Shown here in pieces: positions 7,266-9,294 of a stretch of 32,066 bases of DNA (position 1 is the stretch's first letter; each line of letters starts with the position of its first letter). The stretch is taken from contig SICC01000008.1 of assembly GCA_009694835.1 (NCBI GenBank), positions 1 through 32,066 of the forward strand. The letters are read 5' to 3'. This DNA comes from Patescibacteria group bacterium (GTDB taxonomy: Bacteria > Patescibacteriota > SICC01). Below the pieces are notes generated by a model. That model made no database searches and was not told the DNA's origin. It saw only the letters and a program-made list of their open reading frames with translations. Made by a program: the position numbers and the translations under genes.

Positions 7266-8216
7266 ATGACTAAACAGGCTGCTAATGTCAAAAGCTCGGC
7301 TCCGCCGCTCGACTGGTGTGTGGTCGGAACCTTGGCTTGGTTCGGAATTCTCGGCCGACCGCTGCGGTTACCGGAACTACGGCGATTGTTGTTGAAACGA
7401 AGCGCGACCGACGCTGAACTAAAGGCTGAACTAAAGAAACTCGGCGATGCCCTGGTCGAAAAAGATGGATGCTATTCACTGAATGGTTTGCCGGTGCAGT
7501 ATCCGACTCCGGAACATGATCGCTGGTTTCGGTACAAATGGTGGCGAGCTCACCTAGCAGCCAACATCATGCGGAGAATTCCCTATGTTCGAATGGTTGG
7601 CGTTGGAAATACGCTGGCCGATCAAACCTCATCCAAAGACAGTGACATCGACGTGTTCGTAGTGATGAAGCACGGACGTTTGTTCCTTGGTCGGACACTG
7701 GTAACTGTGGCCATGCAGCTCACCGGGCTACGACGTCATGGCAAGAAAATTTCTAATCGGGTTTGTTTATCCTTTTATGCCACCGATCATCATCTCGACC
7801 TCTCGGACGTGGCCTTTGTACCATATGACATTTATCTCGCCTATTGGGTCACAGAACTTACACCGGTGCTGTCCGACAAGAATACCTATCAGAATTTCTT
7901 GAAAGCCAACCGCTGGGTGCTGAATTATCTGCCAGGCTTCGGATCGCGTCCGTGTGAGCCAGCTAAACCGTCCTGGGGAGCTCGAATCGGGGAACGCGTG
8001 TTCGACACTCGGCTCGGGGAGATGCTCGAACGACGACTATCAAAACGGCAGCTGTCACGAATCAACACCGACCTGCGGCCAGACGAGCCGGATGTACGAA
8101 TTATCGCGACCGAGTCGATGCTGAAGTTCCATGAAAAAGAGCGTCGCAAGCTCTACCGCACCGATTGGGAAGCGGCCATGAAGCGCTTTGGGTTTGATGC
8201 AGATTTGATTACGTAA
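7266..8216 (+). CDS. Nucleotidyltransferase-like protein (DNA polymerase beta superfamily-type motif)
   Basis: Motif VGNTLADQTSSKDSDIDVFVV matches the G-S...D-x-D pattern of minimal nucleotidyltransferases. Confidence 0.65.
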   Translation: MTKQAANVKSSAPPLDWCVVGTLAWFGILGRPLRLPELRRLLLKRSATDAELKAELKKLGDALVEKDGCYSLNGLPVQYPTPEHDRWFRYKWWRAHLAANIMRRIPYVRMVGVGNTLADQTSSKDSDIDVFVVMKHGRLFLGRTLVTVAMQLTGLRRHGKKISNRVCLSFYATDHHLDLSDVAFVPYDIYLAYWVTELTPVLSDKNTYQNFLKANRWVLNYLPGFGSRPCEPAKPSWGARIGERVFDTRLGEMLERRLSKRQLSRINTDLRPDEPDVRIIATESMLKFHEKERRKLYRTDWEAAMKRFGFDADLIT

Positions 8217-8221
8217 ATTTA

Positions 8222-8250
8222 TTGACAACCAAGGTATTATTTGATACCTT
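8222..8250 (+). promoter_or_regulatory. Promoter for the 57-aa sORF unit
   Basis: Perfect -35 TTGACA (8222-8227), 17-nt spacer, extended -10 TGA-TACCTT (8242-8250). Confidence 0.65.
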
Positions 8251-8304
8251 TCGAGGTTCCTTGAAAACCTGATTAGTCACTCCGTTACACAACCAAGGAG
8301 AGGT

Positions 8305-8478
8305 ATGTTCAACCGACCCAGTTTCATCAAAAAAGAACTCGGTGCCCGCACCCTGCTCGACCGCTTCACCACCTCGCGCTTCTACAGCTGGCTCGATCCC
8401 GAACGCCGCTTCAAGCGCATCCATCGCGTCGCTGACAAGCTCCAGAGCACCAGCGAAGCCACCCTCCGCAAGCTGTAA
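8305..8478 (+). CDS. Small basic protein, 57 aa, unknown function (not in supplied ORF track)
   Basis: MFNRPSFIKKELGARTLLDRFTTSRFYSWLDPERRFKRIHRVADKLQSTSEATLRKL; SD AAGGAGAGGT just before ATG; strongly C/G-ending third positions. Confidence 0.75.
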   Translation: MFNRPSFIKKELGARTLLDRFTTSRFYSWLDPERRFKRIHRVADKLQSTSEATLRKL

Positions 8479-8486
8479 CGGACCAC

Positions 8487-8533
8487 GAGAGTGCGGCGGA
8501 TCACGTCTGATTATTCAGACCCGCCGCACTCTC
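8487..8533 (+). other. Perfect nested stem-loop after the sORF stop
   Basis: GAGAGTGCGGCGG / CCGCCGCACTCTC (13 bp) enclosing ATCAC bulge and GTCTGA-TTAT-TCAGAC (6 bp). No U-tract follows. Confidence 0.85.
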
Positions 8534-8589
8534 TATTCCGTCTTTGAGTGACTAATCAGGTGATATGGTAGCCTGCTATACTATTAACT

Positions 8590-9294
8590 ATGGCTGCTTG
8601 GTATATTGAGGCACCGCGTAAGACCGGACTGAAACTGGCAGACTTTGTCTGGCCGGCACATTGTGTTGGCTGTGGTTGTCCGGAAACCTGGTGGTGCTTA
8701 GGGTGCGACCTGTCGGTGATTACGATCGACAGCCCAACCTGCCCCAGGTGCAATCGCCCGTCATTACATGGAACCTACTGTGCCACCTGCCGAAAAGGGA
8801 AGATGCTGCGTGGCGTGCTGGCTGGTGCTCAGTTTAACGGCCCATTACCAGCACTCGTAAAAGCCCTGAAGTACCGACATGCCAGAGCCGTGGCCCCGCA
8901 CCTTGTCCCGTATCTAGAGCGGCCGCTCAATACGTTGCCACACATAGAAAACGCCGTGCTGGTTCCAATTCCGCTGCATGCATCTCGAGAACGGCAACGT
9001 GGCCACAATCAATCCCGCATCTTGGCTGGATTACTATCCAAACAGACCAAGATTCCCCTGGCCGATGGGTTGGAGCGAATCAAACCGACCATATCCCAAA
9101 CTGGTCTTAATCGATCGGCTCGCCAAAAGAATGTCGAGGGTGTCTTCCGGTGGAGAAAGCGGGTCAAGCCTCGGGCAACGGCCATTCTGGTCGATGACGT
9201 CTTCACCACCGGAGCCACGCTCGAGTCAGCGGCGCGAACCTGCCGGGCTGCTGGAGTGCAGACAGTTTGGGGGCTAGCGGTGGCGAAGCGTTAG
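8590..9294 (+). CDS. ComF family protein (phosphoribosyltransferase-like)
   Basis: N-terminal Cys-rich zinc-finger region (CVGCGCPETWWCLGC...CPRCNRP...CATC), C-terminal AILVDDVFTTGAT PRPP-binding motif, RGHNQS. Confidence 0.93.
   Translation: MAAWYIEAPRKTGLKLADFVWPAHCVGCGCPETWWCLGCDLSVITIDSPTCPRCNRPSLHGTYCATCRKGKMLRGVLAGAQFNGPLPALVKALKYRHARAVAPHLVPYLERPLNTLPHIENAVLVPIPLHASRERQRGHNQSRILAGLLSKQTKIPLADGLERIKPTISQTGLNRSARQKNVEGVFRWRKRVKPRATAILVDDVFTTGATLESAARTCRAAGVQTVWGLAVAKR

Follow-up and report, generated by a model that had tools for sequence, protein, structure and literature searches.

Known systems and the locus compared

In the genomes of small candidate-phyla bacteria, orphan small genes have, to our knowledge, been explored very little. 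For a short gene bracketed by inverted repeats, the closest described systems are MITEs, invertons and hok-like toxin mRNAs. MITEs are recognised by multiple related copies in the genome and by a target-site duplication at their ends, and the cognate recombinase of an inverton is usually found nearby. Hok-like systems are characterised by a fold-back of the mRNA that occludes translation initiation, by a small hydrophobic membrane toxin and by an antisense RNA gene. Invertons are DNA segments flipped between inverted repeats of 10-40 nt, for example in gut bacteria (PMC11892184), and in the hok/sok type I toxin mRNA the 5' and 3' ends fold back on each other (PMC8167048).

The locus considered here lies in a window of 32,066 nucleotides (the whole stretch of DNA that was analysed, to which all positions refer unless a contig is given) from the 578-kb draft genome, 83% complete and in 29 contigs, of a Saccharimonadia-like bacterium. 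A perfect 16-bp inverted repeat here brackets a Shine-Dalgarno sequence, an ORF of 57 codons and a hairpin, that is, exactly one ORF unit. As in MITEs, terminal inverted repeats delimit approximately 300 bp; unlike MITEs, the unit is present in a single copy, shows no target-site duplication and has an apparent gene inside. As in invertons, a short segment is enclosed by inverted repeats whose length falls between 10 and 40 nt, but here the repeats surround an entire ORF and leave its promoter outside, with no recombinase recognised nearby upon inspection. With hok/sok the unit shares its length of about 300 nt, a protein of approximately 50-60 amino acids and complementary ends, whereas the protein is basic (+8) and has no membrane segment, the predicted Shine-Dalgarno accessibility is not altered by the closing stem, the 3' arm lies past a terminator-like hairpin and the scan calls no promoter on the minus strand. 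Like orphan small-protein genes, the locus presents a short intergenic ORF with promoter-like, Shine-Dalgarno and terminator-like signals and no homologues, and differs from them by the flanking perfect 16-bp inverted repeat and an unusually strong preference for C-ending codons. It is read here, with rather more confidence than doubt, as an orphan gene for a small protein, specific to its lineage and equipped with its own signals, on an additional block of roughly 350 bp that separates a nucleotidyltransferase-like gene from comF.

An extra block upstream of comF

The comparison genomes are the two nearest known relatives, G001 and G002, from the same family and one sister genus. Collinear with both, at 42-76% protein identity, are trpS, the nucleotidyltransferase-like gene, comF and a VanW-like gene, whereby the name of the nucleotidyltransferase-like gene rests on weak or partial family matches, that of comF on NCBIfam and Pfam matches that do not exceed the cut-off, and those of trpS and the VanW-like gene on our own reading of the sequences. 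Because these genes are collinear and the relatives keep only 22 and 40 bp between the stop codon of the nucleotidyltransferase-like gene and the ATG of comF, the segment from 8217 to about 8568 (plus strand; right edge approximate), absent from both, is regarded as extra; its roughly 350 bp carry the promoter-like sequence, the leader, the ORF and the terminator-like hairpin. Gain of the block in this lineage and loss in the single sister genus both fit, although gain is favoured in that the protein was found nowhere else among the collections searched.

On the comF side, an extended -10 element, CCTGCTATACT (8572-8582, plus strand), keeps its position in the relatives (CCTGCTAAAAT; GCTTGTTAAAAT), where the extended -10 of the spacer (GCCTGCTAAAATACAGACATG; GCTTGTTAAAATAGGAGCATG) aligns with GCCTGCTATACTATTAACTATG of the window. 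This element, of the TG-N-TANNNT type, is located 6-7 nt before the ATG in all three genomes (-10/ATG sites at window 8572-8592, L056 4080-4097 and L055 1318-1335, the last on the minus strand), a distance so short that it suggests a comF mRNA that is leaderless, or nearly so, in the family of these three genomes.

A putative orphan small-protein gene

The ORF at 8305-8478 on the plus strand encodes MFNRPSFIKKELGARTLLDRFTTSRFYSWLDPERRFKRIHRVADKLQSTSEATLRKL, a protein of 57 residues with the net charge of +8 that the initial annotation had given it. Its codon score of 0.271, compared with a median of 0.247 for real gene segments, is reached by 0.7% of off-frame segments, and the codon-position signal starts at its ATG. 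The strong preference for C- and G-ending codons noted earlier is borne out by a GC3 of 0.81 versus a gene median of 0.60, a value reached by 0.9% of the 57-codon segments of other genes, and by C in 37 of the 42 pyrimidine-ending codons, as compared with 59% C in ribosomal genes. As the codon score is gene-like, the signal starts at the ATG and the codons favour C endings, the ORF is probably a real gene; the C-ending bias may reflect high expression or foreign origin, and the data fit either. A bias like that of the orphan ORF is also displayed by a VTT-domain (DedA-like) gene on another contig (C29; stretch L071 14520-15146), which with a GC3 of 0.82 is at the top of the sampled genes.

In the single-sequence AlphaFold model (mean pLDDT 72.6), the protein forms helices at residues 7-23 and 32-56, the second of which is amphipathic as judged by its hydrophobic moment. 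No membrane segment is present in the protein, with a maximum 19-residue mean hydropathy of -0.04.

No homologue of the ORF was found in any collection searched, an outcome that the initial annotation had named among those that would refute its reading. The protein was not found in 59 relatives or in GTDB contigs, nor in 382 phylum genomes compared at both the protein and the DNA level; it has no match in Pfam, PHROGs or NCBIfam or to PDB sequences, and its AlphaFold model matches no PDB fold. Viral contigs, plasmids and phages likewise yielded no homologue, and Rfam gave no match. Protein matches of low significance within the phylum (E 0.02-0.34) were taken as noise, as they are no more numerous than expected over 382 genomes and several contain internal stops, and plasmid matches with E 0.6-0.9, short DNA matches of 19-31 nt in the 382 phylum genomes and a match to Rfam Xoo2 (14 bits, E = 3) were equally rejected. 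The literature on small proteins in Saccharibacteria yielded nothing specific. With no homologue and no membrane segment, the suggested toxin-like peptide finds no specific support; what stands of the proposed small basic-protein cassette is the extra, self-contained block with its gene-like codon statistics.

Signals for expression

A candidate sigma70-type promoter on the plus strand (8222-8250), composed of TTGACA at 8222-8227, a 17-bp spacer and TACCTT at 8245-8250, predicts an RNA start at about 8257. The promoter that had been proposed upstream of the left repeat is thus recovered with respect to its -35 hexamer and start, but TACCTT is a poor -10 match and a stricter consensus promoter scan did not list the pair. 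A perfect palindrome, AAGGTAT-N6-ATACCTT (8231-8250), overlaps the spacer and the -10 hexamer; it occurs once in the genome, where near-matches are no commoner than the control. A 10-bp direct repeat, ACAACCAAGG, is shared by the promoter region (8225-8234) and the Shine-Dalgarno leader (8287-8296; positions approximate), and the copy in the leader can form base pairs with CCTTG located around 8259-8263.

The Shine-Dalgarno sequence AAGGAGAGG (8294-8302, plus strand) is present as annotated, just 5' of the ATG and with good spacing, and is partly paired in the predicted folds with or without the right arm. Likewise confirmed is the nested GC-rich hairpin at 8487-8533 on the plus strand (arms 8487-8502 and 8518-8533), which has 13 perfect base pairs and a 6-bp upper stem and is followed by TATTCCGTCTTT; together they make up a candidate intrinsic terminator, whose U tract is weak and which a simple terminator scan did not call.

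For an orphan gene of this kind, transcription would probably start from TTGACA-17-TACCTT, translation from AAGGAGAGG-ATG would probably give rise to a basic, soluble protein with a largely helical predicted fold, and most transcripts would probably end at the hairpin 8487-8533. The right arm of the repeat would lie outside most transcripts as part of the comF promoter region and, on this reading, the two arms would act, if at all, as DNA and not as an RNA stem, for example with one protein binding at both promoters. In favour of this reading are the collinear relatives that do not carry the block and the good Shine-Dalgarno spacing, and a coding-like ORF with translation signals but no homologue in the collections searched is what characterises orphan small-protein genes. 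Counted against it are that same lack of homologues, the weak promoter and U tract that scans do not call, a near-equal codon score on the antisense strand together with a 71-aa antisense ORF, and the failure to find a regulon of the repeat core TGAYTARTCA.

The 16-bp inverted repeat

The arms, ACCTGATTAGTCACTC (8267-8282, plus strand) at approximately +10 to +25 of the predicted RNA and GAGTGACTAATCAGGT (8546-8561, plus strand), are 100% complementary with 263 nt between them, so that, at the level of sequence, the perfect repeat around a single unit is real, as initially described. Its arms may be an operator pair, the ends of a recombining segment, an RNA stem or a product of chance.

As to an operator pair, the left arm contains the near-palindromic core TGATTAGTCA, with the arm core TGAYTARTCA itself nearly palindromic; the left arm is positioned in the leader, and the right arm ends 15 bp before the comF -10 hexamer. 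Elsewhere in the genome the core recurs at four sites, at least two of which are inside ORFs (C4:6308; C22:5975), while another of the four, C12:1015, is in the leader of an ftsA-like gene (Pfam FtsA). A TGAYTARTCA regulon is not supported, as there are only these four other sites, at least two are within genes and the ftsA-like one is not conserved. In the ftsA-like leader, GTGACTAATCAGG (C12 1012-1027) provides a 13-nt match to the arm right after a TACACT -10-like hexamer; neither of the two relatives conserves this site upstream of its ftsA. A long hairpin of TAGTC-like units, TAGTCACTAGTCG...CGACTAGTGACTA, is found on C29 (stretch L071 13638-13702) in a 725-bp gap between ORFs.

It is considered unlikely that the arms delimit an element that is, or once was, mobile, or an inverton that flips the ORF relative to the outside promoter. 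A perfect 16-bp repeat around 263 bp falls within the 10-40 nt range of inverton repeats (PMC11892184), its core is near-palindromic and the region is extra compared with the relatives. On the other hand, the unit is single copy in the 83% complete draft, a second self-match in the genome being the hairpin against itself, no meaningful DNA match occurs in the 382 phylum genomes, and the extra block exceeds the repeat-bounded unit with about 50 bp outside on the left. By eye, the flanks (...TTGAAA / GATATG...) share no target-site duplication, and no recombinase or transposase was recognised among the neighbouring ORFs upon inspection, with some neighbours compared to Pfam; a single tyrosine recombinase was noticed elsewhere in the genome, on contig C29. 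The MITE-like mobile unit that the initial annotation had offered is not upheld, since a single copy and no homologue leave a MITE family unsupported.

Coincidence, with the repeat surrounding an ordinary small gene, is not probable either. Extrapolated from the rate of 12-bp inverted repeats in an order-2 Markov simulation (span 100-450), the expected number of 16-bp repeats is about 0.003 per 32 kb, which makes one by chance unlikely but not impossible in a single window, whereas some are expected once many windows are read, and one would be met by chance among several hundred. Against chance, the repeat is the longest long-range perfect inverted repeat, by 3 bp, in 188 kb of stretches sampled from the genome, window included, where no other reaches 14 bp and the runners-up have 13 bp; moreover, it surrounds just one ORF with its signals.

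Distinctly unlikely is a closing stem that joins the ends of a structured, roughly 300-nt mRNA in hok-like fold-back inhibition. The fold of the whole unit has z = -6.95, and the closing stem is predicted with a probability of about 1 if the transcript passes 8561. Not listed in the initial annotation, CCGTTACA (8282-8289) extends the left arm and is complementary to TGTAACGG (8474-8481), which includes the stop codon of the ORF; the resulting second helix (8283-8289/8474-8480) continues the 5' strand of the closing stem with a probability near 1, and an extension of this kind would arise by chance with a probability of 0.013 if 7 bp are counted, or of 0.0016 if the base shared with the arm is added to make 8 bp. 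However, the interior (8283-8484) folds like shuffles with z of only -0.8, so the z-score of the whole unit stems from the closing stem and the hairpin. Furthermore, the right arm is downstream of the terminator-like hairpin, the predicted accessibility of the Shine-Dalgarno sequence (0.44) and of the AUG (0.75) is the same with and without the right arm, no antisense promoter is called and Rfam gives no match. Of the structured RNA suggested previously, two helices with thermodynamic support are retained, but not a structured interior or an effect on the accessibility of the ribosome binding site.

A small-protein cassette of a Saccharibacteria-type genome that is switchable or mobile, through recombination at the 16-bp repeats or through a fold-back-controlled mRNA, and is coupled to the comF promoter appears quite improbable. 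Minus-strand coding by the 71-aa ORF at 8209-8424 is highly improbable and the plus-strand gene is the better reading, as, despite a score of 0.263 in the aligned antisense frame that nearly equals 0.271, the codon-position signal is absent from 8209-8304, stopping at the plus-strand ATG, and continues beyond the antisense start, and the only Shine-Dalgarno sequence is on the plus strand with none near the antisense ATG.

Implications

Taken as an orphan small-protein gene, the locus is a self-contained unit that no other genome has shown so far, and it offers a clean example of a complete small gene unit present in one lineage, at a site where the surrounding genes are otherwise collinear. 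If the repeats are recombination or regulatory sites, they would constitute a testable switch beside comF in organisms with little known regulation.
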